Shown here: positions 23,405-64,000 of the stretch, one piece after another
Layout: each line of letters starts with the position of its first letter
How positions within the stretch are numbered: position 1 is the stretch's first letter
From: Zygnema cylindricum
Taxonomy: Eukaryota > Streptophyta > Zygnematophyceae > Zygnematales > Zygnemataceae
Direction of reading: 5' to 3'
NCBI GenBank assembly: GCA_037447655.1
Contig: JBBHKE010000077.1
Coordinates: forward strand, 1-64,000
DNA: 64,000 nucleotides
Position numbers and translations under genes: made by a program
The notes under the pieces: model-generated
Told to the model about the DNA's origin: nothing
The model's input: the letters and a program-made list of their open reading frames with translations, nothing else
The model's database searches: none

Positions 23405-24045
23405 GCACTCTCTAGCTCCATGAATAGTGTAGCAAGCTCATTGCAAAAATCCAACATCTTCCCCCCTTTGTATACATACTCTTTAAATTTCTGATCAGCC
23501 AACTGTTGTTGCTGAATGGTACCACTTCGGTACATCTCTATGAGAGCCATATAAAGACAGGATGTCGTTTCTACCTGCAAATGAGGATTTGCAAGCCCTT
23601 GAGTAAGATGGCGGAGGATGAAGTGTTTTGCCGCCATATTGTTGAAGTCCCAGGTATCAGTATCATTCTTGTCGTTCCTCGGAATAGGTAGCACGAATGT
23701 TGAACTAGTTGCTATTAGTGAGGTCGTCTCCTTCTCCATTGCATTCTCCACCACCTCTCCTTTGTTTGTCTCTTTCGTTGTAGATGTATCTGCTTTCCTT
23801 GTGAATCTGCTTCCTCCCAACCCTGGAGGGACTCCAAGACTTGATAGACGCCCCACTCGTCCACTCACTATCCCCCAAAACCTTTTCTCGCATTGAGCTC
23901 CTGTCATCTGTTGAAAAGAGGTAATTAATAGTTCACTTCCCTATTTTAGTTTCGCTTTAAAGAAAGAGAGTGAGGACCAAAGGCGCGCCATGGCTGCCGC
24001 CATATTTAGAAAGTGGCAGTTTTTGCAGTTTAGGGTATTTTGGCT

Positions 24046-24121
24046 AAAATGATGCCTAGGTCTAGATTTGAACCTATGACCTCTAGATTCTTTATAGCCT
24101 TACGCCTTAACCATTAAGGCG
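24046..24121 (-). other. tRNA-like module in A 5' LTR (antisense)
   Basis: Minus strand: D-arm-like hairpin CGCCTTAATGGTTAAGGCG (24103-24121), box-B-like GGTTCAAATCT (24064-24074), TTTT (24046-24049). The D block matches tRNA-Leu/Ser-type D arms. No pairing acceptor stem was found. Confidence 0.6.
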
Positions 24122-24415
24122 TTACGAAACAATAGACGTGACGGGTTTCATAAATATATAAATATTAACGAAACAGCTAATTAACAGCAGACTAACCAAA
24201 ATGAGCAATTTCTGCATGTACGCGAATCTGAACCGTGTAAAATATGTTTTGATCGGACGGCCGGCATTATAGCCGCCACGCGAAGTGAGCTTTTTGGCGG
24301 CATACGGATATAGCGTCACGCGGTGCCACGTGGCGCCACATTATTTGATACCGGAGAAGATGGGAGGATGAACTATGGCTTCCGATATGACAGGTGTCAC
24401 CTTGTAGACCTTGTC

Positions 24416-24463
24416 GTACAATGGTTGTACAATAAGTACATCGCCCATTGTACCTTCTTGTAC
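24416..24463 (+). promoter_or_regulatory. Phased GTAC cluster in A 5' LTR
   Basis: Five GTAC cores at 24416, 24427, 24436, 24450 and 24460. GTAC is the core recognised by plant SBP-box (SPL) factors, and GTCGTACAA is close to TNCGTACAA. The first three keep 11- and 9-bp spacing shared with other families. Confidence 0.55.
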
Positions 24464-24779
24464 TTTATAGTGTTCCTATTGGACTAGGGTTTAATAGTAG
24501 GTAGTCGTGAGTAGGCAGACCGAGACTTAGTAATATTTAGGTACCTCTCTCTCTAAGAGAGCTTGTAACAATAAAGGTCATCTTTGACCAGCCATAACTT
24601 ACTGCTCGGGTGAGCAAATTCAGTGATTCTTTTTGCGTTTGACTCAGGGGAGTCTTGTCCTCACAAAGGTGAGAGTGGTCATAATATTTGTGTGCCTGGG
24701 CGGCGCTTATTCAGCGGGAAAGTAGAAGGGGCAAATATTATCCTAGAGGCTTTACATAGGCTGCTCATTCTGTGGGTCA

Positions 24780-27700
24780 ATGGAGACCACAGAATTTCAG
24801 GTTATGGGCCCACCCCTTAGGGTGCCAATATTTGATGGATCAGACTTTCTTTATTGGGAAATGATGATGGAGGGAGAACTATTTGAGAAGCATCTATGGG
24901 GCATAGTGTCTGGACAAATTCGATGCCCACCTCCACCTGGGTTTGGAGGGACAAGTTTTTCTGGCACCTCCGCCTCTACAGTTGGTAGAACAGCTGCCAC
25001 CATCACCGAGGATGAAGATGAGGAAGGAGAAGAGATTGTCATGGAAGGAGAAAAGGAAGGAGTTGCAACTCAAGTAACACCATTGCCGAAGGCAATACCG
25101 GCAGCAGCACCACCAGCAACAACGACAAGGGTTCAGACCGAAAGATCAGAGTATGAAAAGTGGAACTACAAAGACAAGGTTGCTAAGCTCTTAATTCTTA
25201 AAAGTGTAGCAAAGGGCATTGCCATTCCCCTTATGCATGTCAAATCTTCATCTCAGATTTGGATACACTAGTTAACAAATATAAGAGTGGATCATTGCAG
25301 CAGCAACAGTTGGCAGAAAATATGATTGCAGCTTATACTTATAAGGGAGGAAGTATAGATAAATATTGCAATGATTTAGGAGCATTGTTTGGAGAGTTAG
25401 AGAGTGCAGGTAACTCATGGTCTGAAAGACAAAGAGTGAACACATTAATGATGAAACTACCTGAAGAGTATGAGAATATCATTAACCGATTGCAGGACAT
25501 AGGAGATAGCAATTGGAATTGGGATGACACTGTGGGAATGATTTTAGTGAAAGAAAGCACCATAGAGCTTAGGAGAGGGAGTCCAAGTGTTCAAGCATTG
25601 TCTGCAGGAGCTGATTGGCGGAAGCGTGATGAGGAGAGAGGGAAAGATCCCTATCGAAACTTTGGTGGAAGAGGACAAGGAGGTGGCAGATTTGATAGAC
25701 AGGGGAGAGGAACTTCTCGAGGAGGATTATGTCACTTCTGCAAGAAACCGGGACACTATATGGCAGATTGTGTCAAACTTGCAGATCTTCGACTGAAAGA
25801 TGGTCAAGGAACCTCAAAGGACGGAGGAAAGAAAAAGACTTTCCTGACTCAAGTTCTTGATGAGGAAGTGGAAGAAAAAACTGAACCTGAAGAGGAGCTT
25901 GAGGAGCTTCTCCTTAATCCGAAAAACACTGAAAAGCATGTCGACATTCCACGGAGACAAAAGTGTGCTTTCGGAGGTAAGAGGGATCCACCCGAGGATG
26001 GGTGGATCATAGACTCAGGGGCTTCAATGCATATGTGCAAAGATAAGCGGTGGTTCACTAAACTGAGAAAGATCCCAACAGTTGAGATAGAGTACGGAGA
26101 TGGTGGAGTAGAAACCACAAGTCTTGTTGGAACTGTTGACTTGAAGGTTCTAGTTGATGGAAAGGCCTCAATTGTAACACTCTCAGACGTTCTTTACATT
26201 CCACAACTTAGCAAGAACCTAGTCTCAACAGCTGTCCTAGATGAAAAGGAGTTTGAAAGAGGAACTAGGAAAGGAATCTTCACAGCAAGCTTTGATAATG
26301 AGGTTTATTTCATAGCTGAGAAGGGCAGTCAAGGAATGTTCAGAATTGTACTTTGCAATGAAAAGAGTGTTCTCTACTCGTGTGCAAGTGAGATGATGCT
26401 TTGGCATAAAAGGTTGGGGCATGTGCATCTAGAGAGATTAAAGAAAATGAAGAAAAAGGGAATAGTGGAGGGTATTACTTTTGAAGATGATGAGACCTTT
26501 GATGATTGTAGTGGATGTGCCCAAGGGAAGATTCATAGACTTCCATTTCCAAAGGCAACCACATTTAGGAGAGAGAAAGTATTAGATCTAGTTCACACTG
26601 ATGTTTGGGGACCTGCTAGGTATGCTTCACATGGGGGGAAGAGATGGATGTTAACTATCACAGATGATTGGTCTAGATACACGAAGGTATACTTTCTCAG
26701 ACATAAGTCAGAGGTATTAAGATGTTTCAAAGAGTATAAAGTATGGAGTGAAAAGCTACATGAAACCTCAATAAAAGAGATAAGAAGTGATAATGGGAAA
26801 GAATACACCTCAAGGGATTTTGAAGAATATCTTAAAGAAGAAGGAATTCATCATGAGAAAACTGTTCCCTATAATCCGGAACAAAATGGAGTAGCAGAAA
26901 GAGTGAATAGAACTTTAGGAGATATGTCTAGAAGTATGTTAAGTGATAAGAGGATAGGGCTGCAGTTTTGGGCTGAGTCTATGAACTATGCTAATTTCAT
27001 CAAAAATAGAGTCCTAACTTCAACAAATAAGGAGGAAACTCCGTATGAGAGGTGGATAGGAAGAAAGCCTGATTTGTCTAGTTTGAGAGTGTTCGGAAGT
27101 CAAGTCTACAGTTTGGATTCCGATAAGACTAAATGGAAGTTAGAGGGAAGAGGGAAACCAGGATATCTTGAAGGATATGATGAGAGCACAAAAGGATACC
27201 GAGTGTATGACTTGAAAAAGAGAGATATAATTTTTGTAAAACACATAGTGGTGATGAATGAAGAGAAGTCCATTGATCCATTCAAATATAATAAGGAAGT
27301 CAAAATCAGATTTGAAACGGATCAATTTTCTGACTTTGACTTTGAAAATGAAGAGAAGGAAGAGGGAGAAAAAGAAAAATATGTAGATCTACCAAAGGAG
27401 AAGGAGGAAAGGACAACATCCGAGGCAACGCCACAATACGAAGTGGAAACCGATGAGGAACTTGATGAGACACCGGAATTGGAAGATAGGGAAGCTGAAT
27501 ATCTCCCAAAACGAAACCCAAAGATGCCATCCATACCGGCGTCCGATTTTGAAAGGGGAAGAAGAAGTAGTAAACGACTTCAAGAAAGACAAGTAAATAA
27601 CCAACTCACAAAGATGTCTCACCCAGATGAACCTCAAACATACTTAGAGGCCATAAACACTCCAGAAAGTAGCCGGTGGATCACAGCTATAAATGAAGAA

Positions 27701-29215
27701 ATGGCCTCTATCATGGAAGCCAATACATGGGAGTTGGTAGATTGTCCACCAGACCGAAAACCGATCGGATGTAAGTGGGTGTTTAAACTTAAATTAAACC
27801 CGGATAATACCATTGAGAGGTACAAAGCTAGGTTAGTTGCAAAAGGTTATACTCAGAAATAGGGGATAGACTACGAAGAAACCTTTGCACCTGTAGTCAG
27901 ATTTCCTTGTGTTAGAATCCTTTTAAGTATAGCCGCAGCGGAGGATTTGGAAATCCACCAGATGGATATTAAAACTGCCTTTTTGCACGGAGAGTTGGAA
28001 GAAGAAATTTACATGAGGCAACAGGAAGGATTCGTAGAAAGTGGGGAAGAAAACAAAGTTTGCAAACTGATAAAATCACTCTATGGGTTTAAGCAAGCCC
28101 CGCGACAGTGGAATATAAAGCTCGACGAATTTCTGACCGGTTTGGGGTATATCAGAATTAGTTCAGATCACTCTATATATTTATTTGAGGATGAGAATGG
28201 AGTGATATTTATTGCTATTTATTTGGATGATTTGTTAGTCTTAAGCAAGTCCTTAGATAAAATTAACAAACTAAAACGGGATCTTAAAAGAAGTTTTGAT
28301 ATGAAAGATCTTGGCGAAGCAAAGTACATTTTGGGAATTCAAATGGAGAGAGATAAAGGGAATAGAATTATAAGACTCACTCAAAAAGAAGCAATCGGTA
28401 ATATGCTAGAAAAATTTCAAATGGAGAAAGCAAACGGATGTACTACTCCCATGGATTTGAAGAAAGTGAGTGAGGGGAGAGAAGAGGGAGGAATATTCAT
28501 CATTAATGATGAGATGGACGAGATAGAAAGAAAATTTATGGAAAATATCCCTTATCGGCAGATTGTAGGCAGTTTAATTTATTTTATGAACTGTACCCGT
28601 CCGGATATAGCTGTAGCTGTAGGTGCCCTTAGTAGAAATCTAAATGAACCAAGAAAGAGAGATTGGGAGGCTGCCAAAAAGGTGATGAGGTATCTGGTGG
28701 GGACAAGGGAATTATGGTTGCATTTGGGAGGGGAGCACACTGAGATCACCACTTGGAGTGATGCCAGTTATGGAGATGTGCCTTTAAGGAGGTGTACGAC
28801 TAGATATGTGTTGCAAATTGGATCCGGTGCATGTTGTTGGAGTAGCAAGCAACAAAAAGTAGTTGCTCAATCCACTATGGAGGCTGAATACATGGCTTCC
28901 TGTGCTGCCACCAAAGAATTAATGTGGGTTAAATCTCTTCTTGAAGAACTTGGGTTCATGAAGTCTGGAACTCAACATGTTTTTTGTGATAATCAAGCTG
29001 CTATCTCGATTGCAGCTAATCCGAAACATCACTTCAAAGCTAAGCATATGGATATTAGACTAAGCTTTGTCAGAGAGAAGGTAGAAAATAAAATTATTAA
29101 ACTGGTTCATAAAACTGATAAAGAAATGATCGCAGACATGATGACAAAAGCAGTGCCTTCCCCTAAGTTGATTTATTGCAGAGAAAACTGTGGATTAAAA
29201 TTGAAAAGTGACTAG
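24780..29215 (+). pseudogene. A gag-pol polyprotein (one frameshift, one stop)
   Basis: Starts in the LTR: METTEFQVMGPPLRVPIFDG. Gag runs 24780 to about 25260, where a one-base change shifts frame. The second part (25259-27862) has CCHC knuckle CHFCKKPGHYMADC (about 25730), protease WIIDSGASMHMC (about 26005), GAG-pre-integrase WHKRLGHVH with CSGC, integrase HTDVWGP, RSDNGKEYT and NGVAERVNR, and the RT N-terminus to a TAG at 27860. The rest (to 29215) has YGFKQAPRQWN, catalytic YLDD, and RNase H with TMEAEYMASC, FCDNQAAISIAANPKHHF and MMTKAVPSPK. All catalytic residues seen are present. The order PR-IN-RT-RH defines Ty1/copia. Confidence 0.95.
24800..24812 (+). other. A primer-binding site
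   Basis: GGTTATGGGCCCA immediately after the LTR CA. Internal initiator tRNA-Met type. Confidence 0.85.
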
Positions 29216-29219
29216 GAAT

Positions 29220-29228
29220 TAAGGGGAG
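29220..29228 (+). other. A polypurine tract
   Basis: TAAGGGGAG-type purine run directly before the 3' LTR, the plus-strand primer site. Confidence 0.8.
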
Positions 29229-30119
29229 TGTTGAAAAGAGGTAATTAATAGTTCACTTCCCTATTTTAGTTTCGCTTTAAAGAAAGAGAGTGAGGACCAA
29301 AGGCGCGCCATGGCTGCCGCCATTTTTAGAAAGTGGCAGTTTTTGCAGTTTAGGGTATTTTGGCTAAAATGTTGCCTAGGTCTAGATTTGAACCTATGAC
29401 CTCTAGATTCTTTATAGCCTTACGCCTTAACCATTAAGGCGTTACGAAACAATAGACGTGACGGGTTTCATAAATACATAAATATTGACAAAACAGCTAA
29501 TTAACAGCAGACTAACCAAAAGGAGCAATTTCTGCATGTACGCGAATCTGAACCGTGTAAAATATGTTTTGATCGGACGGCCGGCATTATAGCCGCCACG
29601 CGAAGTGAGATTTTTGGCGGCATACGGATATAGCGTCACGCGGTGCCACGTGGCGCCACATTATTTGATACCGAAGAAGATGGGAGGAGGAACCATGGCT
29701 TCCAATATGACAGGTGTCACCTTGTAGACCTTGTCGTACAATGGTTGTACAATAAGTACATCGCCCATTGTACCTTCTTGTACTTTATAGTGTTCCTATT
29801 GGACTAGGGTTTAATAGTAGGTAGTCGTGAGTAGGCAGACCGAGACTTAGTAATATTTAGGTACCTCTCTCTCTAAGAGAGCTTGTAACAATAAAGGTCA
29901 TCTTTGACCAGCCATAACTTACTGCTCAGGTGAGCAAATTCAGTGATTCTTTTTGCGTTTGACTCAAGGAAGTCTTGTCCTCACAAGGGTGAGAGTGGTT
30001 AGAATATTTGTGTGCCTGGGAGGCGCTTATTCAGCGGGAAAGTAGAAGGGGCAAATATTATCCTAGAGGCTTTACATAGGCTGCTCATTCTATGAGTCAA
30101 TGGAGACCACAGAATTTCA
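29229..30119 (+). mobile_element. A 3' LTR
   Basis: 891 bp, same length as the 5' LTR. tRNA-like block at 29366-29441 and GTAC cluster at 29736-29783 are preserved without indels. Confidence 0.95.
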
Positions 30120-30190: not shown

Positions 30191-31256
30191 TAAAACTCTG
30201 AGACCTCCATATGTTCTCAAAGTGGACAGCTTCCAATAAGCTTTTAAGATTACCTTGACCCCTTTGTGTTTCAGCAAGAATAACTGCCACCCTGGCAAAC
30301 AAAAACTCTAACCACCTTCACCCCTGTGAAGGCAATACTCTTTTGAGTCGATAGTAAAAAGAATCTCTGAATTTGCTCCCCTGAGCAGTAAGTTATGGAG
30401 GGTCAAATTCCACCTTTTATATAGAAGCTCTAAGGGAGAGAGGGTCCTATCTACCAATATTTCTAAGTCCTATCTCTCTCACATACTCTATCTACTGACG
30501 TACAGAGCTAATCATATTACATCTCCGTACACAAAAGTACAGTTGCCGGTGTACTTTCTGTACGGATATTGTACGACATGGCCTAAAAGTTGACACATGT
30601 CATATCCGGATTTTGTCCTGTAATTCTCAAAGATGCCGCGATCCAACGCAATTTCAACACGTGTCATCCAATATGCGATGACCAGAAACCGCCGAGATTC
30701 TCTTCCGCGATCTTGGCTTTCTTCTGGCCGTCCGATTGAATGCAGATTTCAATCACAGCCGTCATAAATACTTGCTTGGTATTTATTTCGTTTAAAGAAA
30801 CAAATGCGCGGTACTTGTTTGGTATTCGTACCGTAATCCGTACTTCTACATAAGTGACTCTATGTATTCCGTAAGTGGTTGTCGTTAAATGAAATATCCT
30901 ACGTGACCATGTTTAAATAAATATCAAACCTTATACTATGCATCGTAACATCTAGACTTCACAGTTAAGGCTACCAGCTACTCGCGTCTGACGATCGGCA
31001 GGTACCAGGATCAAATCATGGTTGCATCACTAATCCTTTTAGTAAATAAACTACCATTCAAAAAATCAACTAATCTATTTCTTCTAAACCTCTAAATAGC
31101 CTAGGTAGCCATGACTCTAGCTTCCTCTCCAACTTCTTAGTGATTGCAACAAGTGTGGAGTTGGAGAGAGAAGTTAGGGATAGACTGCCCCGGCTTCTTT
31201 GTGTATTTCTATTTAGACCTAGAAAATACTTAAAAAAAGGACCATCAATTTCTACA
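30191..31256 (-). mobile_element. F 5' LTR (family II)
   Basis: Minus-strand TGTAGAAATTGATGG to CTCAGAGTTTTA. Followed by PBS GTTATGGGCCCA. The TATA-like ATATAAAAGG complement lies near 30418. tRNA-like block 30966-31040 has box-B-like GGATCAAATC and TTTT. Its right edge abuts RNase H of element E. Confidence 0.85.
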
Positions 31257-31774: not shown

Positions 31775-31796
31775 TTAGACTAGAAAATAAGGGGAG

Positions 31797-32790
31797 TGGT
31801 GAAATAAGTAGTTTTTGGTATTTCCAAGGTCTAAAATAATTAGATAAAGAAAATGTAGGGAGCCTGCCTCCATCTCTTCTCTCTTGCCCCATACTTGTTG
31901 TAATCGCTGAAGGAGAGAGAGTGCCATGGAGCCATGGCTGCCTCAGCTTCATAGGTAGGACTAAAGAGTGACTAAAGTCACTCTCAACAAAACGTTAAGT
32001 CCGGCAGGACTCAAACCCCCGACCGGCATAACGCGTCGTAGCTGTTAGCTCTAACCAGTCTGTCGTAGAAGTCCGTTAGGAGATATAGGGTTTGATAAGT
32101 ATTTAAACTATTGTATAATACTGAAACCATTTAAGTGAAATATGGACAAATGAACAAAGAATTTGTTAGGGTTTAGATCGAACATCATTTCCCACAAAAC
32201 AAATGAATCGGCCATTTGTTTTAACGGTCGACATTTAATGTCGGATTTAATCCGACGCCGCACATCATCGCCGAGATTACGGAATGGTCACTTTGGCTTT
32301 TATGGACGTGGCGTGACCTAGCGCCGCATGGAAAGATGACATTCGGTCGCGGGAATTCTGGAGAATATACGAACGAGTGGAAAAGTGACACGCGTCCACT
32401 CGATAGCCTTGTCATACACCGGCCGTACAAAAAGTAAATCGGTTGTAGTACCTTTTTTGTACTTTACTGTTATATGATTAGTTCGTACTTCAGTAGATAG
32501 GGGTTGTGAGAGAGGGTTAGGACTTAGGAAATTTTGGTAGATAGTCACCTCTCTCTATAAGAGAGCCTTGTATAAATCGGCAATCTTTGCAATCTCATAA
32601 CTTATCGGATGGTTGGCCTTTTTCAATGATTCTATTTGCTACGTACTTAAAGGAGTCCAATCTCACAAGGTGGAGTCAAATTGTCATTTTGCCTCCCTGG
32701 ACAGCAATGGTTTTTGCTTGAAGTGGGTTATTTCAATACTATCTAGAGGCTTCCTGTATTCAGTGGTCCAATAGAGGACACAGAATTGCA
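31797..32790 (+). mobile_element. E 3' LTR
   Basis: 994 bp, TGGTGAAATAAG to ACACAGAATTGCA. TATAAAT at 32571-32577. Antisense tRNA-like block at 31989-32054 (TTTT, GGTTTGAGTCC, CTGGTTAGAGCTAAC on the minus strand). Confidence 0.85.
32571..32577 (+). promoter_or_regulatory. TATA box of E LTR
   Basis: TATAAAT preceded by the conserved GAGAGCCTTG and followed about 25 bp later by CATAACTTATCGG, the same arrangement in the other family I-III LTRs. Confidence 0.6.
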
Positions 32791-33445
32791 AATTAGAATC
32801 CCATAATAGCTTCAACCTTGTGTCCTCAGTTCCACCACAAGATGCAAAGTTAGAATATGACTTTTGGATATTTTCCTCTCTTTAAATTTCCTTTAGAAAT
32901 GCAGTCACCCTGGCAGGCAAACACTCTGACCAACTAAATCCTTTTGTAGCCAAGACTCCCTTGAGTTCTCAGCGAAAACAATCACTGAAAATGGTCTACT
33001 GAGTGAGTGTTAACTAAATGGCAAAGTTTACCTATTTATATAGATGCTCTCTGCGAGAGAGGCAGCTACGTACGAAAAATATTCTAAGTCCTCAAACCCC
33101 TCTCTAAGCTCCTTAGTATTGAGGAACGGTCCAATCATAAGACTGTAGCGTACAAGAAAGTATAGGTATCGTCGTACTTTCTGTACAGTCCATGTACGAT
33201 ATCACCACAAGGTGACATTTGTCACATCCGGACTTATTATCTCTCATTCCAAAATTCCCACAATCCTCTTGGATCCTGCCACATGTCATCCAGAGCGGCT
33301 GTGCTCAAAAACGCCAAGTTGTCCACTCGAGAATCTCGGCTCGCACCACGACCATTCGATGAAGAAAGACATTTAATATTGGTCGTAAAACAAAATGTTG
33401 TTTCGTTAATTCCGTGCGGTCTAGAATTCGTGCGGTTTATCTCAA
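32791..33445 (-). mobile_element. Partial LTR related to 12041-13350
   Basis: Shares TCAGTTCCACCACA and AAAGTTAGAATATGA with 12200-12240, plus ATTTATATAG (TATA complement) and GTAC words near 33150-33205. The left edge is cut by E, the right edge by the LTR of C2. Confidence 0.75.
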
Positions 33446-34251
33446 TGTTGTTCTACGACCATCAGTCCAGGTGGAGGAGCAGCAGTAGTAGTAGAGGTAG
33501 ACATGATACACTCTCAGAAGCTATCAAGAATCCTACCAAACAGCTGTTTACAAGTGCTCACCAAATTCTATACACGCATCCAAACTTCACAAAGCTCTAT
33601 CAAAGTATAAAGCAGCATAAACAGTGACAACTCCCAAAGTTTCAGTACAATTGACTCGACAACACTCAAGATATAATACTCAAAAGTTTCCCAAAAACTG
33701 TCTGCAGTTTTACTACTTGGAAGTCTGGATACATAATATGTTCTGAGTCCTAAGTCTTATACTTGTGTTGAACTGGCAACACCTGTGTACTTCAGAGGTA
33801 CGTTAAACCACTAAGCAACCACTAATCTATCAAGCTACCACTAGGCTATCACTAAGCTACCACTGAGCTATCACTAAGCTACCACTGAGTTACCCACTAA
33901 GTTACCACTGAGTTACCCACTAAGTTGACTAGAATCGTATCTATCGCAATTGCTCTATGCTGTACAGAATCACATTAAGAATATAAGACGCTGCGTTGTC
34001 CGTACGGACCATATAAAATATAATCCTGGTTGCGTTGTTCTGTCTGTGTTCTAGCATCGCTGTTGCGCTGCTCTGCTGCTGCGTTGCTGCCTTGCTTTGC
34101 TGCTGCGCTCTTGCGCTGCTCTGTCAGTATAGCAGCTGCGTTGCTGTGTCTGTATAGCAGCTGTGCTGCTCAGTCTGTATAGCAGCTGCTTTGCTTTGTC
34201 TGTATAGCAGCTGCGCTGGTTTGTGACTAAAAGCTTTCCAAAAAGACAACA
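33446..34251 (-). mobile_element. C2 3' LTR
   Basis: 806 bp. Minus strand TGTTGTCTTTTTGGAAAGC to the end GAACAACA. Contains CAGCTG repeats (34045-34215), more copies than element C, and GCTACCACT(A/G)AGCTA microrepeats (33825-33925). Confidence 0.9.
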
Positions 34252-35722: not shown

Positions 35723-35723
35723 T

Positions 35724-36524: not shown

Positions 36525-37424
36525 TGAAATTATGTGGTCTCCATTAAACAGCAGAATGAACAGCCTATGTAAAGCCTCTAGGATAATGTTTGACCCTTTC
36601 ACTTTCCCACTCAATAATTGCCGCCCAGGCACACAAATATTATGACAACACTCACCCTTGTGAGGACAAGACTCCCTTGAGTCAAAGGCAAAAAGAATCA
36701 CTAAATTTGCTCCCTTGAGCCATAAGTTATGGCTGGCCAAAGAAGGCCAATAAATACAAAAGGTCACCTGGAGAGAGGCGCCTCAAACACGCTAAGTCCC
36801 TTAAATCCTACTCAAAACTACTTACTACTCTACCTTCGTCCAATCAAAAGGGTGTATAGTAAAAAAAGGTACAGTGGCCAATTGTACTTCTTGTACGGCC
36901 ATTGTTCTGGTTGACACTTGTCAACATGGGAGCCATAATTCCTCCTCCCATCCTTTCCGGCGTCCAATGATGTGGCACCACGTGGCACAGCAAGCCGCTA
37001 CGTTAAAAAGCCGCCAAAGATTCATTCGGGTTTGGCGGGGGCAACGACGTCTGTTCGATCATGTATTTTACACGGTTAGATTTGCGTCCGCGAGCGTTGT
37101 TTTACTATTGATGCCGTTTTGTCAATTTTGGTCTGTTTTAATGAAAGTGACGTTTTGCGTAATACTTTAAATACATAGCAAACTGAATACGTGTATTGTT
37201 TCGCTAACGCTTTAATGGTTAAGGCGTTCTTCATGTAATACTATTTAAACCTAGGTTCAAATTTCGTTTAGGGCATCATTTGGCAATTTATCAATCTGTT
37301 TGCGTGTCTCTTGTTTCTTTCTGTCTATGGCGGCAGCCATTGTGAGTCTCTCTCTCTCTCTCTCCCTCTCTCTTCACTTTGGAGTTTAAGTTAAGAAGTG
37401 AATATTAATTACTTCTTTTCAACA
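36525..37424 (-). mobile_element. B 3' LTR
   Basis: 900 bp, minus-strand TGTTGAAAAGAAGTAATT to ACCACATAATTTCA. tRNA-like block on the plus strand at 37208-37281: CGCTTTAATGGTTAAGGCG, GGTTCAAATTT, TTT. Confidence 0.93.
37208..37281 (+). other. tRNA-like module in B 3' LTR (antisense)
   Basis: D-arm-like hairpin (37208-37226) and box-B-like GGTTCAAATTT (37254-37264). The terminator run is reduced to TTT in this copy. Confidence 0.5.
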
Positions 37425-41837: not shown

Positions 41838-42031
41838 TGAAATTCCGTGGTCTCTATTAACCCACAAAATTAGCAGCCTATGTAAAGCATCTAGGATAAC
41901 ATTTGCCCCTTTCACTTTCTCACTCAATAAGTGTCGCCCAGGCACACAAATATTTTGACCACCCTCACCCCTGTGAGGACAAGACTTCGCTGAGTCAAAC
42001 GCAAAAATAATCACTGAATTTGCTCCATTGA
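41838..42031 (-). mobile_element. R-U5 fragment between two gag copies in B
   Basis: Matches 42813 to about 43001 of the 5' LTR, so only the last ~190 bp of the LTR. Its upstream end falls about 36-43 bp after the LTR TATA box, i.e. near the expected transcript start. Confidence 0.85.
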
Positions 42032-42812: not shown

Positions 42813-43710
42813 TGAATTTATGTGGTCTCCATAAACCCTCAAAATTAGCAGCCTATGTAAAGCCTCTACGATAATATTTGACTGTTTCACTTTCCCACAG
42901 AATAAGTGCCTTCCACGCATACAAATATTCAGACAACCCTCACCATGGTGAGGAAAAGACTCCCCTGAGTCAAACGCCTAAAGAATCACTGAATTTGCTC
43001 CCCTAGGGCGTAAGTTATGGCTGGCCAAAGATGGCTTATAAATAAAAAAGGTCACCTGGAGAGAGGCGCCTCAAACACGCTAAGTCCCTTAACTCCTACT
43101 CACAACTACTTACTACTTTATCCTCGGCCAATCAAAAGGGTGTATAGTAAAAGAAGGTATAGTGGCCGATTGTACTTTTTATACGTCCATTGTACAACAT
43201 GGCCTCTGGTTGACACTTGTCAACATGGGAGCCATAATTCCTCCTCCCATCCTTTCCGGTGTCCAATGATGTGGCACCACATGGCAGAGCGTGCCGCTAT
43301 GTTTGAAAGCCGCCAAAGATTCATTCGGGTTTGGCGGGGGCAACGATGTCCGTCCGATCATGTATTTTACACTGTTAGATTTGTTTCCGCGAGGGTTGTT
43401 TTACTATAGATGCTGTTTTGTCAATTCTGGTATGTTTTAATGAAAGTGACGTTTTGCGTAACACTTTAAATGCATAGCAAACTGAATACGTGTGGCGTTT
43501 TGTTAATGCCTTAATGGTTAAGGCGTTTTTCATGTAATACTATGTAGACCCAGGTTCAAATCTCGTTCGAGCATCATTTTGGCAATCTATCAATCTCGCT
43601 GCTTGGTTGCCTGTTTCTTACTGTCTATGGGGGCAACCATGGTGAATTTCTCCCCCTCTTCACTCTAGAGTCTTAATTAAGAAGTGAATATTAATTACTT
43701 CTTTTCAACA
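42813..43710 (-). mobile_element. B 5' LTR
   Basis: 898 bp. TATA complement near 43036-43044. tRNA-like block at 43508-43580: GCCTTAATGGTTAAGGC, GGTTCAAATCT and TTTT on the plus strand. Confidence 0.93.
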
Positions 43711-50460: not shown

Positions 50461-51500
50461 TGTGTAGAAACTAAAGGTTCTTTTTCGTATTTTCTAGATA
50501 AAAGGCAGAAAAGAAGCAGAGGTCGTCTGCCTCTAACTCCTCTCTGTCAACTCCCACACTTGTCGCAGTCACTCAAGGTTGTACAGGGAGCTAGAGCCAT
50601 GGCTGCCTATGTTGTCCAGAAAGAGACAAGTAGCAATTTGGTAGGTTTACTAAATAGGCACTTAACGAACACAAGATTTGATCATAGTACTCACGTCCGT
50701 CAAGTCCTTGATAGCCGGTAGCTTTATCCTATTAGTGTAGGATCAGTGTTGATAGATACAGGGTTTGATAACTATTTAAAGAGGTATATGTAACAAATTC
50801 GTTTTACGGCGCGAACAAATTTTTAGACATAGACATAGTTTTGTCTAGTACGTTGTACAAAACTCTACGAAACAAATATCGCGCATTTGTTTCGACCGCA
50901 AAACTAATACCACGCAATTCATTTCGACGGCTAGAGTCAAAAAAGGATATAGATTGAACGGCCGCGAAAGATGCCAAGATCGCGAAATTGGCGCTTTGGC
51001 AGTTTTCGGTTATCGCCACGTCAAATGATACGTGGCACAATCACATTGGCTTGCGGCATCTCCGAAGAATGCTGGAACCAATCTGAATAACGCACGCGTC
51101 GACATTTTTACCATGTTGTACGATGGCCGAGTAGAAAGTACATCGGTACCAGTACTTTTTTGTACAACGCAGTAGTCATATTGGTGTCGTACTTTACTAG
51201 TATAGGGTTTAAAGAGGGATAAGACTTAGAAAATTTGGTAGGTAGACCACTCTCTCCTAGAGAGCTCTTGTACAAAAGGATAACTTTGACCCTTCATAAC
51301 TTACTGCTCGATGAGCAAATTCAGAGATTCATTTTGCTATCGACTAAGGGGAATCTTGTCTTCACATGGGTGAAGTTGGTGAATCTTTTTATCTGTCAAG
51401 GTGGCAGTTATTCTTGTGGAAACTCAAAGGGGTCTAGGTTATCCTAGGGGCTTTAAGTGAGCTGCCCACTATGAGGACCAATGGAGGTCTCAGAGTTCTT
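50461..51500 (+). mobile_element. D1 5' LTR (family II)
   Basis: 1040 bp, TGTGTAGAAACTAAAGG to TCTCAGAGTTCTT, followed by PBS GGTTATGGGCCCA (51501-51513). GTAC cores at 51118, 51138, 51146, 51152 and 51162. The 20-bp gap equals 11+9 with the middle core decayed. Confidence 0.88.
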
Positions 51501-52384: not shown

Positions 52385-53431
52385 TGTAGAAATTAATGGG
52401 TCTTTTACTATTTTCTAGGTCTAAAATGAAACGGAGAAAAGAAGCCGAGGCAGTCCGCCTCTAACTCCTCTCTTCACCTCCCACAATTGTCGTATTAACT
52501 GAATTAAAGAGAGAGCTAGAGCCATGGCTGCCTGTGTTGTCCAGATAGAGACAAGTTGTTGATTTTAGTAGGTTTAATAAAAAGATACTTGACGGACCTA
52601 GGATTTGATCCTGATACCTGACGTCCATCAAGTTAGTCGGTAGGGGTTTGCTTTATCCTAGAAGTCTAAGACCAATGGTAGAGTATATAAGGTTTGACAA
52701 ATATTTAAATAGTTAGACGTGAACTAATTCATTTAACGAAAACTATATACGTCATGCATAGAGACAATTTTGTAAAGTAAGGAGTACAGTACAGTTCGAA
52801 AACGAATACCGCGCATTTTATTTTGACAACGAAACAAATTTTGCGCAAGTATTTATGATGGCTACGATTGAAACCAGGTTTTGATCAGACGATCGCGAAT
52901 GATGCTGAGATTGTGGAATAGGATTTTGACGGTTTGCGGTCACCCAAACATTGATTGACGGGTGTCAAAACCACATTGGATTACACCATCTCTGGGGAAT
53001 ACAAAAATGAATCTAAATATGACACGTGTCGATTTGTTGACCATGTCGTACAATAAACGTACAGAAAGTACACCACCACGTGTATCTTTCTGTACGACAC
53101 AATATTATGATTGGTGTTGTACTTTAATAGATAAGGTTTTTGAGAGAGATAGGACTTAGAAAAATTTGGTAGATAGGACCCTCTCTCCGGAGAGCATCTG
53201 TACAAAAGGTCATCTTTGACCACTTCTAACTTATTGCTCATGAGAGAAAATTCAGCATTTTTTTTTGCTATCGACTCAAAGGAGTCTTGCCTTTATAAAG
53301 TTGACCATGGTGAGATTTATTGTGTGCCAGGGTGGTAGTTATTCTTGCTAAAACACAAAGGGGTCAGGGTTATCCTAGAGGCTTCGTGTGAGCTGCCTAC
53401 TCTGAGGACCTATGGAGGTCTCACAGTTGCA
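52385..53431 (+). mobile_element. D2 5' LTR (family II)
   Basis: 1047 bp, TGTAGAAATTAATGGG to TCACAGTTGCA, then PBS GGATATGGGCCCA. Antisense tRNA-like: AAAAA 52579-52583, GGATTTGATCC (52601-52611, complement GGATCAAATCC). Confidence 0.88.
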
Positions 53432-53665: not shown

Positions 53666-54050
53666 TGTAGAAATGTATGTATTTTCTAGGTCTAAATATA
53701 GGAAAATTGGTAAGAGGAAGTCAACAAAGTCACCCTGCCTCTTGCTCCACTCTCCAAACCCCCACACTTGTCATAGTCACTAAAGGTTGGAGAGACAGCT
53801 AGAGCCATGGTTGCCAATGGTGCCACTGAAAGAGACAGACTGAAGTTTCTGGTAGGTGTACCAAAATGGTCTTGACGCACTCAAGATTTGATCCTGGTAC
53901 CTGCCTTCTGTCAAGAATCCTTTAGTCGGTAGCTTTATCCTATAGTTTAGGATTAGTGCTAGAGCATATAGGGTACGATAGTTATATAAATGTGAACGAC
54001 GCAATATATTTCATTTAGCTGCTTACAAACAGACTGTACACGGTATTGAG
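53666..54050 (+). mobile_element. D3 LTR fragment (family II)
   Basis: TGTAGAAATGTATGTATTTT, then CCATGGTTGCC and a tRNA-like remnant. Ends at the K LTR. Only the U3 part remains. Confidence 0.8.
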
Positions 54051-54811
54051 TGTTGTCTAATTGGAAAGCTTTCAGTCTCAGAGCAGCGCAGCTACTCTAC
54101 AGACAAAGCAGCGCAGCTGCTATATAGACAGAGCAGTGCAGCTGCTATACAGACATAGCAGCGCAGCTGCTATACTGACAGAGCAGCGCAGCTGCGCAAC
54201 AGCGAAGCTGCAACACAGACAGGACAACGCAACCACGATTATATTTGATATGGTCCGTACGGACAACGCAGCGTCTGATATTCTTAATGTGATTCTTACA
54301 GGATAAGCAACTACGATAGATCACGATTCTAGTCAACTTAGTGGGTAACTCTGGTAACTTAGTGGTAACTCCGGGGTAGCTTAGTGATAGCCCTGGTGGT
54401 AAGAAGTGATAGCTCGCTGGTAGCTTGACAGTTAGTGGTAGCTTGGTGGTTTGACATACCTCTGAAGTACACTGGTGTTGCCTGTTCAACACAAGTATAA
54501 GGCTTATGACTCAGAACATGTTATGTATCCACACTTCCAAGTAGTATAATTGTAGACAATTTTTGGGAAACTTCTGAGTATTATATCTTGAGTGATGTCG
54601 AGTCAATTGTACTCAAACTTTGGGAGTTGTCAGTGTTTATGCAGCTCTATACTTTGATAGAGCTTTGTGAAGTTTGGATGCGTGTATAAGATTTGGTGAG
54701 CACCTGTAAACATCTGTTTGGTAGGATTCTTGATAGCTTCTGAGAGTATATCATGTCTACTTCTACTACTACTACTGCTCCTCCACTTGCACCGAAGGTC
54801 GTAGAACAACA
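54051..54811 (+). mobile_element. K 5' LTR
   Basis: 761 bp, TGTTGTCTAATTGGAAAGC to GAACAACA, followed by GGTTATGGGCATG as a degenerate PBS. Confidence 0.9.
54075..54200. repeat. CAGCTG-bearing tandem units at the U3 start of K
   Basis: About five units of roughly 27-30 bp around AGCAGCGCAGCTGCTATA, with the palindrome GCAGCTGC in each. The same array varies in copy number in C and C2. Confidence 0.85.
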
Positions 54812-57716: not shown

Positions 57717-58139
57717 CAAGACCCTTGTGCACTCAAAAAGATTTCAATCCCATATAAACTAACTTGATAAGCTTGTGTTGTGTTTGGGTTACGTTGATTT
57801 TATGTATATCAGATGATTCGTGCTAGATCAGACACCCTATATTGTGAGGGAATTTTTATTCTTATTTTGCTATTGTCATCTTCTAAATGAACATTATTTT
57901 GACAGTTTCCAAATGCGAGCCTTGAGACAATACTCATAAAATTTGGAAAATTCCCTTACGCTAAAAAAACATTGAAAAGAAAAAAATTATGAAGAAAAAA
58001 AAAAAAATTAAAAGAAAATAATAAGACAAACCTTAAAATATTTAATTTAAAAGAGTTGAGATGAAAGAAAAACATGTAAAGGAATAAATAAGATGAAAAA
58101 AATAAGAAAAAGAAAGCAAAAATGAAAATACAAAACTAT
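57717..58139. other. Unassigned, partly A-rich spacer
   Basis: No gene seen. 57955-58130 is A-rich (AAGAAAAAA words). This is the only stretch right of 12 kb without clear element sequence. Confidence 0.5.
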
Positions 58140-58250
58140 AAGTTTAGGGTAAGGTTGTAAGATTTAAGGTCAGGTTGTACGATTTAGGGTTACGTTGTAG
58201 GATTTAGGGTTAGGCTGTATGATTTAGGGTTAACTTGTACGATTTGTTGA
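58140..58250 (+). repeat. 20-bp minisatellite with TTTAGGG core
   Basis: About five units of GATTTAGGGTTAGGTTGTAC type. TTTAGGGTTA includes the plant telomere heptamer. Ends four bases before the J LTR. Confidence 0.9.
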
Positions 58251-58425
58251 AATAATTAGTTTTATTGTATTTTCTAGGTCTAAATTAATTAGTGGAAAAC
58301 ATACAAAAGAAAATGTAGGCAGCTTGCCTCCATCTCTTCTCTCTTGTCCCCATACTTGTTGTAGTCACTGAAGGAGAGAGAGAGCGATGGAGCCATGGCT
58401 GCCTCAGCTCCATGGGAAGGACTAA

Positions 58426-58445
58426 AGAGTGACTTAAGTCACTCT
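58426..58445. repeat. 20-bp perfect palindrome in J LTR
   Basis: AGAGTGACTTAAGTCACTCT, repeated at 63813-63832 and imperfectly at 31965-31984 and about 8370. It contains TGACTTAAGTCA, bZIP-like half-sites. Confidence 0.9.
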
Positions 58446-58449
58446 CAAC

Positions 58450-58519
58450 AAAAGGTTGAGTCCGGCAGGACTCGAATCCCTGATCGGTAGAGCGCGGCGT
58501 AGCCGTTAGCTCTAACCAG
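58450..58519 (-). other. tRNA-like module in J 5' LTR (antisense)
   Basis: Minus strand: CTGGTTAGAGCTAAC (58505-58519), GATTCGAGTCC (58468-58478), TTTT (58450-58453). Confidence 0.55.
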
Positions 58520-58905
58520 TCTGTCCTAGAAGTGCGTTAGGAGATATAGGGTTTGATTAGTATTTAAACTATTCTACTATACAGAAATCGTTTATTTGTA
58601 AATCTTTACGGCTTGCATAGATAAAGTTTGATAAAGTACAAAGTACTATACTAATTGGAAACGCATATCGCACATTTTGTTTCGACATCGAAACGAATAT
58701 CGCGCAAGTATTTATTACGGCTGAAATTACATTTCGCGTTAAATCTGACAGGCACATCATCGCCGAAATCTCGAAATGGTAACTTTGGCATTTAGTGACG
58801 TGGCATGACTTAGCGCCACGTGGAGAGACGACATTTGGTCGCAAGAATTCCGAAGAACGTACGCACGAGTGGAAAATGGACACGCGTCCGCCTAATGGCC
58901 TTGTC

Positions 58906-58979
58906 GTACAGAGGCCGTACAGAAAGTACATCGGCAGTAGTGCTTTCTGGTACTGTACAGTGTTCTGATTGGTTCGTAC
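58906..58979 (+). promoter_or_regulatory. Phased GTAC cluster in J 5' LTR
   Basis: Six GTAC cores at 58906, 58917, 58926, 58950, 58955 and 58976. The first three have the same 11- and 9-bp spacing as in element A of another family. Confidence 0.55.
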
Positions 58980-59259
58980 ATGCAGTAAATAGAGGCTGTG
59001 AGAGGAACTAGGAAAAACTAGGACTTAGGAAAAATCAGGAAGATAGACCTCTCTCTCTTTGAGAGTTTGAATAAATTAACATCTTTGCCAACATATAACT
59101 TATCGCCTGGTTGGGCGTTTTCAGACATTTCTTTTTCTACAAACTCAAGGGAGTCCATGCTGCACAAAAGTGCAATCAGATTGTCTGCTTGTCTGCTTGG
59201 GTAGCAGTGGTTGCCATTGAAAGTGGGTTAGTTAATAACTATCTAGAGGCTTCTTGTAT

Positions 59260-60380
59260 TCTGTAATTAAATAGAGGACACAGAATTGCAGGATATGGGC
59301 CCACCCTCTAGGGTGCCCACCTTCAATGGATCAAGGTTCATCTATTGGGAAGCCATGATGATGGGAGCTTTGTGCAAAAAATGATACTGGGGTATCGTCA
59401 GTGGACAAGTGAATCGTCCACCTTCAAAAACTCCACCAAGATTTAGAGGAGTAAGGTTTCCTATAGCTACGACTTCCTCAGCGGAGGAGGCAGATGATAG
59501 GGACAGCAGTGTGTCCGAAAAGGGGAAAGGGAAGGAGACACCCCTCACTCCTATTGCCACAGTATCGGTAGTGGCGACCGTGAAGACTGTGGATAACGAT
59601 ACTCAAGTGTGGGAGGATGTAAACATGGCTGCCAAGAACTTCATTCTGAGGCACCTCACTCAAGCTTTGGCCACCCCTCATCTTCACATTTACAATGCCG
59701 AGGAGTTGTGGATGAGTTTGGTGGAGATCTATAGAGCACGAACTATTCAGGAGCTCCAGTTGGCTAAGCAAAAACTAGTGAGTTACACTTACAAAGGAGG
59801 AAAGATGTTAGATTACTGTAATGATCTTTCTTATTTGCATATGGAGATGGAAAGTAATGGGTGGACAAGCACAATGAAAATGAAAGTTATCATTCTTATC
59901 ATGAAGTTAGCAAATGAGTTTGAGAACATAGTGTACCGAGTACACGAAATGCTTGATAGTTCATGGAAATGGAACACAGTGGTTAAAATGATACTTGTGC
60001 AGGAAACCACAATGGAGATTAGGAGAGGAGGAAAGAGCATTCAAGCTCTAACAATAGGAGGGGACCGATGGGGGAAGGAACCAAAGAAACCTTATAGAGG
60101 GGAAAGAGATAATTCTAGGGGACTGAGGCCCCCAAAGGGTCTTTGTCATTTTTGCAAAAAGTCGGGACACTTCATCGCAGATTGTGTTAAGCTGTCGGAG
60201 CTGAGGCTTTAAGAGAACCATGGAGTGGGTTCTTCCGGAGGGAAGAAAAAGGCATTTGTGGTTACTAAAGTGACAGGAGAAAGCGAGGATGAGTCCTCTA
60301 AGGAGGATGGGGAGCTTCTTCTTGACGAGAGTATGGAGGAGAAAGAGATTCCTCAGAGACAGAAGTGTGAGCTTTGAGCA
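59260..60380 (+). pseudogene. J gag
   Basis: LTR-derived EDTELQDMGPPSRVPTFNG (start codon now ATA), a stop after GALCKK, then open 59409-60212: FILRHLTQALATPHLHIY, MLDYCNDLSYLHMEMES and knuckle CHFCKKSGHFIADC (about 60148). Stops at 60210 and beyond. Confidence 0.88.
59291..59303 (+). other. J primer-binding site
   Basis: GGATATGGGCCCA, one base off GGTTATGGGCCCA. Confidence 0.8.
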
Positions 60381-63300
60381 ATTTGGGAAGCTCCACAAGA
60401 AGGATGGATCATCGACTCAGGTGCATCCATGCATATGTGTCGTGATAAAGAACTCTTCACTAAGCTAAGAAAGATCCCTACTGTAGAGATAGAGTATGGG
60501 GATGGGAGAGTAGTTACTACAGATCTAGTGGGATCAATAGATCTGTAAGTCTTAGTGGAGGGTAAGACTTCTATACTTACATTCTCAGAGGTACTCTACA
60601 TTCCTCAGCTGAGTAAAAATCTTGTCTCTACGTCTGTGTTAGATGACAAAGAGTTTGATACCTTCACCAGAAAAGGAGACTTTACAGCTAAGTATGGGGA
60701 TGAAGTTTACTTCACGGCAAATAAGGGTAGCCAAGGAATGTTCAGGCTTAACCTGAGTAATGAAAAGAAGAATGCTTACTATGTTGGTCTTCCTAAGGTG
60801 ATGATTTGGCATAAGCGGTTGGGGCATGTGCATTTTGAAAGGTTGAGGGAAATGAAAAAGCTTGGGGTAGTAGATGGCATTCAGTTTGGGGATAATTAAA
60901 TGATGGATGATTGTAGTGGTTGTGCTTAAGGTCAGGCTCACAGACTTCCCTTTCCCAAAGCCGCCATATATAGAGGTGAGAAAGTGTTAGATTTGGTCCA
61001 CACAGATATTTGGGGACCCGCAAAAGTACCTTCAATTGGAGGAAAGAGGCTTATCATGACAATAACCGATGACTTGTCTAGATACTTTAGAGTCTTCTTT
61101 CTGAAAGCAAAGTCTTAAGCATGAATTTACTTCAAAGAATATAAAGCTTGGAGTGAGAAGTTGCATGAAACCCCCATTAAGAGGATAAGGAGTGATAATA
61201 GGGGGGAATATACCTCTAACCAGTTTGAGGAATATCAAAGAGATGAGGGAGTGCAGCACCAGAAAACTGTACCATATAACCCGAAACAAAATAGGGTAGC
61301 TGAGAGGTTTAATCGAACACTAGGAGATAGTGTATGCAGTATGTTGGCAAATAAGAAAATAGGAAAGAGATTTTGGGCAGAAGCAATGAACTGTGCCAAC
61401 AACATTTAAAATAGAGTCCTTCCATCAGTTGTAAAGGGAGTGACACCTTATAAGAGATGGGTTGGAAGGAAACCAGATATCTCACACCTTAAAGTATTCG
61501 GTAGCCAAGTTTACAGTCTTGACACGGATAGGAAAAACTGGAAACTAGATGCTAAGGGAAAACCTGGATACTTTGTGGGATATGATCAGGATGTTAAAGG
61601 ATATAGAGTCTATGACTTAGCAAAGAAATATAGCATTCTGGTTAAACACTTAGTTGTCATGGATGAAGGAAAGTCATTAGACCCCTTCAAATATACAAAG
61701 AAGATAAGAATCAGATTTGAGTCCAAAAGTGAGGAGAACTCTGTCGTTTCGAAAGGGACATGAGCGAAACCGTGATTACAGATTCAAGGGAGATCCAAGA
61801 TACAGGAGACTCACCGGAAACCTCACATACTCCTATGGACTTCGAGGAGAAAGAAGAAGCAGGAAAAGAACCGGTTTCCATGGACAGTGGAGCAGATGGA
61901 ACAGTGAGAAGAAATCCAAGACTTCCATCCATTCCAGCTTCAGAGATTGAGGGAGGAAAGAGGAGCTGCAAAAGATTAGAGGAAAAACAAGTCACTCATA
62001 AGGGAACTAAGGTATCTCACCTTGATGAGCCTCAGTCTTACTCGGAGGCAGTGAATAGTCCAGAGAAAAAAAGATGGATTAGAGCCATAAATGATGAGAT
62101 GGCTTCAATCATGGAACGAAATACTAGGGAACTAGCGGATTGTCCTCTAGACAAAAATCCTATTGGGTGTAAATGGGTATTTAAACTAAAATTGAACCCA
62201 GATAATACCATTGAGAGATATAAGGCTCGATTGGTAGCGAAAGAGTTCACCCAAAAGGAGGGGATTGACTTTGAGGAGACCTTTGCTCCAGTTTTTCGGT
62301 TCCCATCACTAAAGATTCTCCTCAATCTGGCAGCAGCGGAAGACATGGAAATACACCAGATGGACATTAAGACTGCTTTTCTTAATGGTGAGTTAGAGGA
62401 AGAAATTTTCATGATACAACCCGAGGTGTTCGTGGAAGAAGGAGAAGAGAGCAAAGTCTGTAGGCTCATAAAGTCCTTATATGGACTGAAGCAGGCTCTC
62501 CGACAGTGGAATAAGAAACTAGATGAGTTTCTTACCGGTTTGGGATATATTTGTATCAGCTCTGACCATTCTATCTATATGTTTGAAGATGAGAATGGTG
62601 TCATTTTTATTGCAATTTATGTGGATGATTTGCTTATGTTGAGTAAATCTTTCGAAAAGATCAATAAGTTAAAGAAAGATCTTAGAAGCTGATTTGATAT
62701 GAAGGATTTAGGGAAGGCAAGATATATTTTGGGGATTCAAATGGAGAGAGATAGGGGGAAAAGGATTATCAGACTTACTCAGAAAGAAGCAATAGGTAAT
62801 ATGCTTGAGAAATTCAAGATGGAAAATGCTAACAGTTGTACGACTCCCATGGACTTGAAAAAGTAAGTGATGGGAGTGTAGAAGGAGGAGTGATGATCTT
62901 AGATGATCAGATGAGTCCAGATGAGAGAGAATTTATGAAGTCTATTCCTTATAGATAGGTCGTAGAAAGTTTAATCCATTTTATTAATTGTACCAAGCCG
63001 GACATAGCGGCTGCAGTTGGAGTACTCAGTAGGATTCTTAATGATCTTAGGAAGAGAGACTGGGAGGCAGCCAAGTGAGTCATGAGATATTTGGTGGGAA
63101 CTAGAGAGTTATGGTTGCATTTAGGAGAGGAGCACACTGACGTCACTACTTGGAGTGACGCGGGTTATGGGGACGCACCTTTGAGACGATGCACTTCTGG
63201 GTATGTGTTGTATGTTGGGGAAGGTGCATTGCTGTTGGAGCAGTAAGCAACAAAAGGTGGTTGCTCAGTCCACTATGGAGGCTGAGTACATGGCCTCTTG

Positions 63301-63618
63301 TTCTGCTGTGAAAGAGATGATGTGGGTCAAGTCCTTGCTGCAAGAATTGGGGTATATAAAGGAGGGAGTGCATGAAGTGTTTTGTGATAATCAAGCGGCC
63401 ATAGCAATTGCAGCCAATCCAAAAAATCATTTTAAGGATAAACATATGGACATAAGATTAAGTTTTGTAAGAGTTTTATAAAGAATAAAATAGTGAATCT
63501 TGTATATAGATCTAATGAGGAAATTGCGGCTGACATGATGACCAAACCTGTGCCCTCTCCAAAGTTAAGATATTGCAGAGAAAAGTGTGGATTAAAAGAA
63601 AAGTTAAAATTAGACTAG
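60381..63618 (+). pseudogene. J pol
   Basis: Protease WIIDSGASMHMC (about 60405). GAG-pre-integrase WHKRLGHVHFERL. Integrase HTDIWGP, RSDNRGEYT, NRVAERFNR. RT HQMDIKTAFLNGELEEEIFM and intact YVDD (about 62620). RNase H VAQSTMEAEYMASC and FCDNQAAIAIAANP to TAG at 63618. Numerous stops and shifts. Confidence 0.92.
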
Positions 63619-63631
63619 AAAATAAGGGGAG

Positions 63632-64000
63632 TGTTGAAATAATTAGTTTTATTGTATTTTCTAGGTTTAAATTAATTAGTGGAAAACATACAAAAGAAAA
63701 TGTAGGCAGCTTGCCTCCATCTCTTCTCTCTCGCCCCCATACTTGTTGTAGTCACTGAAGGAGAGAGAGAGCGATGGAGCCATGGTTGCCTCAGCTCCAT
63801 GGGAAGGACTAAAGAGTGACTTAAGTCACTCTCAACAAAAGGTTGAGTCCAGCAGGACTCGAACCCGCGACCGATAGAGCGCGGCGTAGCCGTTAGCTCT
63901 AACTAGTGAGTCCTAGAAGTGCGTTAGGAGATATAGGGTTTGATTAGTATTTAAACTATTCTACTATACAGAAATCATTTAATTGTAAATCTTTACGGCT
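63632..64000 (+). mobile_element. J 3' LTR, cut by the window end
   Basis: First 369 bp of the LTR after AAATAAGGGGAG. Confidence 0.93.
63837..63905 (-). other. tRNA-like module in J 3' LTR (antisense), best copy
   Basis: Minus strand: AGTTAGAGCTAACGG, then GCGGG-TTCGAGT-CCTGC, a complete 5-bp T-stem (one G-T wobble) with 7-nt loop. It includes GGTTCGAGTCC, an exact box B. TTTT at 63837-63840. D-stem CTC/GAG is possible. Confidence 0.6.

Follow-up and report, generated by a model that had tools for sequence, protein, structure and literature searches.

Why would the long terminal repeats (LTRs) of protein-coding retrotransposons carry, on the strand opposite to the element, the parts of a tRNA-type promoter? 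The question is raised by 64,000 nucleotides of the streptophyte Zygnema cylindricum (GenBank assembly GCA_037447655.1, contig JBBHKE010000077.1, positions 1 to 64,000; hereafter the window), a nest of copia elements. A preliminary description of this DNA had noticed in several of its LTRs a D-arm-like block, a box B-like T-arm and a run of T, in that order, antisense to the element and within the U3 region; order, orientation and place are borne out by profile matches and LTR alignment, and the observation of an antisense tRNA-like module is confirmed. All 12 delimitable LTRs of the copia lineage in the window have an opposite-strand U3 module made up of a TATA-like site, a box A/D-arm, a box B/T-arm and usually a T-run, and each of the 14 profile matches in the window (Table 1) lies antisense to its own LTR. 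On balance, the module is probably a conserved antisense type-2 (tRNA-style) RNA polymerase III (Pol III) unit in U3 predicted to yield an RNA of about 100 nt, with transcription deduced from sequence features.

The module appears to have a single origin. Its carriers had been taken for three different families, a division that does not survive alignment: the LTRs are homologous over their full length, and because the groups match end to end they represent one lineage with one ancestral module. A search profile built from the modules of 11 window LTRs gave, with an E cutoff of 0.01, 110 matches across the window and 66 loci sampled from the assembly (352.8 Mb in 2689 contigs), where some of the window copies recur. 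The 11 matches in loci L061-L066 are again all antisense to the LTR. LTR 3′ halves were counted independently of the module and then checked for a module upstream, which is present for 12 of 14 in the window (the others being a 188-bp piece at 41838-42025 and an apparently truncated LTR at 32819-33199), for 9 of 13 in L061-L066 (the other four lie too close to a fragment edge) and for 78 of 84 in L001-L060 (four near an edge, two without). Around nine of the 110 matches, of which three lie at fragment edges, there is no LTR 3′ half. The interval first proposed for the modules, 23909..64000, does contain them, and further ones lie outside it at 8228-8376, 13032-13187 and 22543-22698. Extending the profile search to E 10 returned no weaker match in the window; accordingly, the other family of copia LTRs present (33446, 44367, 49354 and 54048) shows no module. 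LTRs of this second family hold 11-bp tandem repeats (TAGCTCAGTGG and variants) at 33807-33924, 44729-44803, 49715-49789 and 54335-54386, and several TAGCTCAGTGG-type repeats match the box A pattern exactly, on the sense strand and with no module match.

The arrangement of the sites is stiff. After 105 of the 110 matches (score at least 24, sufficient flank, no run of N) had been reduced to 31 representatives at a cut of about 85% identity, the TATA-like site was found 41 bp before box A in 27 of them, 40 bp in two and 37 bp in two. The distance between the boxes, earlier put at 35-45 bp, measures 45-57 bp from box A start to box B start. The first TTTT follows 24-29 bp after the start of box B in 28 of 31, the position of a terminator in a type-2 Pol III unit; it is absent in two and at 14 bp in one. 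The claim of a T-run in most copies thus stands, with the modules at 37159-37309 and 50623-50786 lacking TTTT after box B. In the numbering of tRNA positions that we assigned to the module, the T-loop retains A58 and R57 in 31 of 31 representatives, G53 in 30, and T55, C56 and C61 in 29 each, so that the box B residues expected of a type-2 unit are kept in 29-31 of 31. The residues kept are those invariant in tRNA T-loops; position 57 is solely A or G, and positions 52, 54, 59 and 62 are more variable. D-loop residues are present in 26 (A14), 26 (G18), 28 (G19) and 30 (A21) representatives. In the modules at 22543-22698, 52558-52715 and 13032-13187, T-loop position 54 is A and the stems are close to CCAGG/CCTGG, a combination that we take to resemble plant initiator tRNA.

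These sites are also conserved beyond their surroundings. Mean column conservation of the TATA-like, box A, box B and T4 sites together is 0.748, compared with a regional value of 0.552. Of 237 circular shifts inside that region, none attains the combined value, and in a wider test the one tie among 327 shifts is the identity shift itself. Between the sites, column identity falls to 0.36-0.46 in the lowest stretches and is 0.51-0.62 in the others. The columns of box B are equalled by 2.5% of windows. Among 11 window LTRs, the peaks of the 5′ U3 are box B (0.70), the D-arm (0.64-0.67) and a CAAACC/TTTAAA block (0.68-0.76) on a background of about 0.33-0.55. The expectation that box positions are more conserved than flanking U3 therefore holds between subfamilies; within young A and D copies there is no such difference. 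Of the U3 blocks close to the module, GCCATGGCTGCC (23987-23998 and 58392-58403), which often lies within a palindrome, AGCCATGGCT, is conserved most.

Motif frequency was a poor guide. The exact GGTTCRANNCC boxes reported at 8325 (+) and 63855 (-) are present, and a third, at 36248, is not inside any module; 0.78 are expected in the window, and 6 of 100 shuffles reach three. One-mismatch boxes show no excess in the window, 15 being found and 19.4 expected. Counts of this kind are near chance and were rejected as proof of enrichment. A combined score for box A, box B and T4 in single LTRs, compared with 150 shuffles, gave values of 0.05 or less in 7 of 13 LTRs, 0.07-0.14 in E2, K, J and C3, 0.65 in E1 and 0.91 in B3; the top-scoring box A or box B in this test differed from the homologous site in several LTRs. 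The module stands above chance because of its position, its stiff spacing and a conservation exceeding that of the surrounding U3, not because of motif counts.

In the largest subgroup the 3′ part of the module also has a covarying fold: across 23 modules, a T-arm-like stem with box B in the loop is enclosed by an outer stem of 10 bp. Double-sided changes occur in 8 of 15 pairs on 14 sequences, a count reached by 4 of 500 shuffles, and in 11 of 15 pairs on 23 diverged modules, reached by none of 500. The covariation score is reached by none of 500 shuffles in either set, and slid controls stay below half of it. RNAalifold predicts 13 pairs on the 14-row alignment, and for 10 modules folded one by one the z-scores range from -0.32 to -4.28. 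A three-pair hairpin on the D side shows no covariation. This hairpin and the conserved TATA-like site, some 41 bp upstream of box A, are additions to the preliminary description. Just beyond the T-run, the antisense strand of C/D-type LTRs has a perfect palindromic hairpin, GAGTGACTTAAGTCACTC, at 58427-58444 and 63814-63831.

Could the module be a tRNA gene? ARAGORN, run with the bacterial code, found none in the window or in 19 of the 66 loci, and RF00005 matched neither the window, at its gathering score or at E up to 10, nor any of three pieces of 171-211 bp. None of the 10 singly folded modules closes an acceptor stem into a cloverleaf, in keeping with the earlier remark that no acceptor stem is present, and no tRNA gene was detected where tested. 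A working tRNA is unlikely because no tRNA covariance match appeared where this was tested, again in agreement with the earlier view. Matches to the mascRNA family (14.1 bits) and to tmRNA (6.4 bits) were weak, far under the gathering scores, and were set aside. The preliminary description had named a lack of any tRNA covariance score as telling against its idea, and in the sequences tested that lack is observed; a Pol III promoter, however, needs no tRNA fold.

What, then, might the module do? In the mechanism we propose, transcription factor (TF) IIIC would bind box A and box B, and TFIIIB with the TATA-binding protein would occupy the TATA-like site about 41 bp upstream. An RNA of about 100 nt would result, begun some 10-15 bp upstream of box A and terminated at the T-run; in the largest subgroup its 3′ half would fold into the hairpin with box B in the loop. 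This RNA would end inside the LTR and would be a full complement of the U3 stretch in the element's genomic RNA. The distance of 41 bp from TATA to box A agrees with plant tRNA genes. In angiosperm tRNA genes, according to passages of PMC11700998, CAA lies within 50 bases upstream in 78-82%, an upstream TATA is present in just 22-32% and a downstream poly(T) in 67-73%. As to its role, one may speculate that the RNA dampens or protects the element's own transcripts, decoys silencing or takes part in reverse transcription. The interpretation offered in the preliminary description, an antisense Pol III transcript or a retained tRNA or short interspersed nuclear element (SINE) capture, is partly supported.

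Several results weigh against an antisense Pol III unit. The box A consensus is loose and its 12 columns are ordinary, equalled by 30% of windows, and only the 7 of 13 single LTRs given above reach 0.05 against shuffles. Other LTR blocks are kept too, GCCATGGCTGCC at 0.86 and parts of the LTR 3′ half at 0.6-0.8. Among young copies (30 of A and 30 of D), variation in the module equals or exceeds the LTR average. In A the box B bin stands at 0.037 and the following one at 0.055, with a mean of 0.0139; in D the box B bin stands at 0.068, with a mean of 0.0430. We read this as the decay of dead copies, and constraint inside young families finds no support in it. The profile used for gathering includes the sites and so favours copies that have kept them, a bias limited by the independent count of LTR 3′ halves. 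RNAalifold retains five (outer) pairs on the 23-row alignment, and no hairpin common to A/B-type modules was seen. The hairpin can form in RNA of either strand; wobble counts would tell the two apart, and GU versus AC cells (14:8, p 0.14; 21:16, p 0.26) leave the RNA strand undecided.

Other explanations account for parts of these data. The two boxes might serve as a TFIIIC-binding chromatin element, a barrier or an opener of the LTR with little or no transcript; the rarity of windows that equal the box B columns (2.5%) is in keeping with this, as is the Pol III-dependent heterochromatin barrier reported for fission yeast (PMC2040200). Such an element would not require the T-run at fixed distance (28 of 31), the TATA-like site at 41 bp (27 of 31) or the covarying hairpin, and we consider it unlikely. 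The likeness to tRNA boxes could also be a matter of chance, the conserved blocks being other regulatory sites such as a Pol II enhancer in the sense direction or palindromic sites for proteins. Other blocks, GCCATGGCTGCC for one, are equally conserved and motif counts are at chance, as this account would have it, but the pattern of kept and changing positions is that of tRNA T-loops, down to A or G only at position 57, and the spacing to the T-run and the TATA-like site fits Pol III; it is very unlikely. A tRNA or SINE head captured long ago, passed on by descent alone and with no present function, would agree with the single ancestor of the LTRs, with the lack of extra constraint on the module in young copies and with Kojima's proposal, in the text of PMC10886601, that insertion of a SINE into an LTR gave rise to the miniature elements called Helenus. 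Descent alone does not explain why the sites persist between subfamilies while stretches between them drop to 0.36-0.46 identity, nor the compensatory changes in the hairpin, and this account, already disfavoured, has a low probability.

The module might act instead in the sense strand, where U3 of the genomic RNA would offer a folded or tRNA-complementary segment that aids annealing of the primer tRNA. The elements have a primer site, GGTTATGGGCCC, that we take to be of initiator methionine (iMet) type, fitting the anticodon arm of initiator tRNA, and T-arms such as CCAGG-ATCAAAT-CCTGG presumably resemble the plant initiator T-arm. A54 is found in plant tRNA-Ala too. A precedent is Ty3, where, according to passages of PMC5371799, tRNAiMet contacts U3 through its D arm and pairs through its T-psi-C arm with the 3′ part of the primer site, likewise located in U3. 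Anticodon-loop priming, as stated for Ty5 and copia in parts of PMC10886601 and PMC5371799, would use a cleaved tRNA that has no T-arm, and the primer site here fits the anticodon arm. Moreover, the T-arms differ in other subfamilies, compensatory stem changes would break pairing to a fixed tRNA, and the TATA-like site and the T-run are left unexplained; a sense-strand role is quite unlikely. Still less probable, and given very little credence, is a self-target for integration, by which the unit would draw integrase to the element's own LTRs and so to safe nested insertions. In L001-L060 without L036, a module lies within 1.5 kb of 22 of 66 outer flanks, and 17 of these 22 insertions, near-duplicates included, are on the side of the module start. 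Within 200 bp there are 2 of 22, where 3.3 are expected if uniform, with no fixed distance or peak, whereas the targeting of tRNA genes by dictyostelid elements described in part of PMC5006619 occurs at about 4-100 bp.

The hosts of the module are protein-coding. In element A the Pfam order PF14223, PF00665, PF07727 (gag, integrase, RVT_2) is that of copia, with integrase before RVT_2, and the element has the primer binding site (PBS), the polypurine tract (PPT) and the TG...CA LTR ends of Ty1/copia. Its reverse transcriptase (RT) is at most 46% identical to any protein among the best 120 of 1848 matches, in a search that scored only the 7998 candidates with most shared words, and the named relatives among those 120 are mostly from flowering plants. 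A search with gag found no match. Immediately before the start of another LTR, at 58139-58245, five copies of a 20-bp repeat have a TTTAGGG-like core that resembles plant telomere repeats. Taken with the RT matches, this repeat makes a plant or plant-like host likely.

Table 1. Antisense modules in the window and the features of element A (strand is that of the feature; E, profile E value)
Feature	Coordinates	Strand	Details	E
Module, minus LTR 7563-8559	8228..8376	+	exact box B 8325-8335; T-run 8350-8354	5.5e-30
Module, minus LTR ending at 12041	13032..13187	+	TATA-like 13040-13047; box A 13081-13092; 3′ part: box B 13137-13147, hairpin 13116-13160, T-run 13165-13169	4.2e-30
Module, LTR about 22369-23404	22543..22698	-	box B 22583-22593	5.8e-30
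Element A	23909-30119	+	gag, integrase and RT domains, split over three reading frames (Pfam)	
LTR A, 5′ copy	23909..24799	+	97.8% identity to 29229-30119; PBS-like GGTTATGGGCCC at 24800	
Module, A 5′ LTR	24041..24169	-	TATA-like 24155-24162; box A/D-arm 24111-24122; box B 24064-24074; T-run 24046-24049	1.9e-25
LTR A, 3′ copy	29229..30119	+	PPT-like purine tract AAGGGGAGTG at 29221, directly 5′ of LTR	
Module, A 3′ LTR	29359..29490	-	box B 29384-29394	6.9e-25
Module, minus LTR about 30191-31256	30906..31056	+	partly decayed	3.8e-27
Module, LTR 31796-32790	31967..32113	-	box B 32007-32017	7.4e-31
Module, B 3′ LTR (36525-37424, minus)	37159..37309	+	box B without TTTT after it	2.5e-19
Module, B 5′ LTR (42812-43710, minus)	43458..43607	+	box B 43553-43563	1.0e-22
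Module, LTR about 50463-51500	50623..50786	-	T-run interrupted (TATTT), no TTTT after box B	1.9e-29
Module, LTR about 52385-53431	52558..52715	-	box B 52601-52611	1.2e-29
Module, LTR fragment near 53735-53990	53843..53991	-		1.1e-19
Module, LTR 58245-59290	58425..58574	-	box B 58468-58478; T-run 58450-58453	8.6e-30
Module, LTR starting at 63632	63812..63961	-	exact box B 63855-63865	1.4e-30

A bolder reading, which we put forward tentatively and with some doubt, is that a protein-coding copia lineage has its own antisense Pol III gene in U3 for a hairpin RNA complementary to its genomic RNA, selected across deeply split subfamilies and controlling or aiding replication. If it is true, a plant-type retrotransposon carries a small RNA gene against itself, which would give a handle on copy-number regulation or on escape from silencing. 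Pol III promoters in LTRs have so far been known from tiny non-autonomous elements and a few animal retroviruses; new here are the antisense orientation and the protein-coding copia hosts. We found no report of an antisense tRNA-type unit in coding copia LTRs in the open-access literature, which is weak evidence of novelty.

The closest structural relatives are terminal-repeat retrotransposons in miniature (TRIMs). Helenus TRIMs, as described in passages of PMC10886601, likewise have a tRNA-like sequence in the LTR in which box A and box B residues are kept, mostly without a working tRNA; they include one Selaginella family, and fungal families have anticodon-loop primer sites. They differ in being non-autonomous, 311-1263 bp long, and in having a Pol III promoter thought to drive the element itself, whereas the module here is antisense and its hosts are protein-coding copia elements with LTRs of about 0.9 kb or longer. 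The LTRs here hold a tRNA-like sequence in the manner of Helenus/TRIMp3, though antisense, but LTR A flanks gag, integrase and RT frames, unlike the LTRs of a short non-autonomous element. The same passages hold that Pol II promoters must serve the autonomous partners of Helenus, which are unlikely to have a long stretch of LTR in common with the TRIMs, and the word "antisense" is absent from the main text of that paper. Cassandra, a 5S-bearing TRIM, has a Pol III promoter and terminator in its LTR (PMC10886601, in part). Its promoter is of 5S type and drives the element itself, which is non-autonomous. For the bipartite primer site of Ty3 we know of no Pol III signals. That site includes a U3 segment related to the tRNA D and T-psi-C arms, and differs in acting through sense RNA that pairs with tRNAiMet (PMC5371799, in part). 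Heads of tRNA-derived SINEs share box A and box B, whereas the module here belongs to an LTR lineage as a whole; no search for a SINE body or tail was made. The Pol III microRNA (miRNA) units of bovine foamy virus and bovine leukemia virus (BLV) are in sense orientation. Both are short Pol III hairpin-RNA units, and the U3 cassette of bovine foamy virus, from what part of PMC7693620 describes, is the nearest functional parallel, although these are animal retroviruses.

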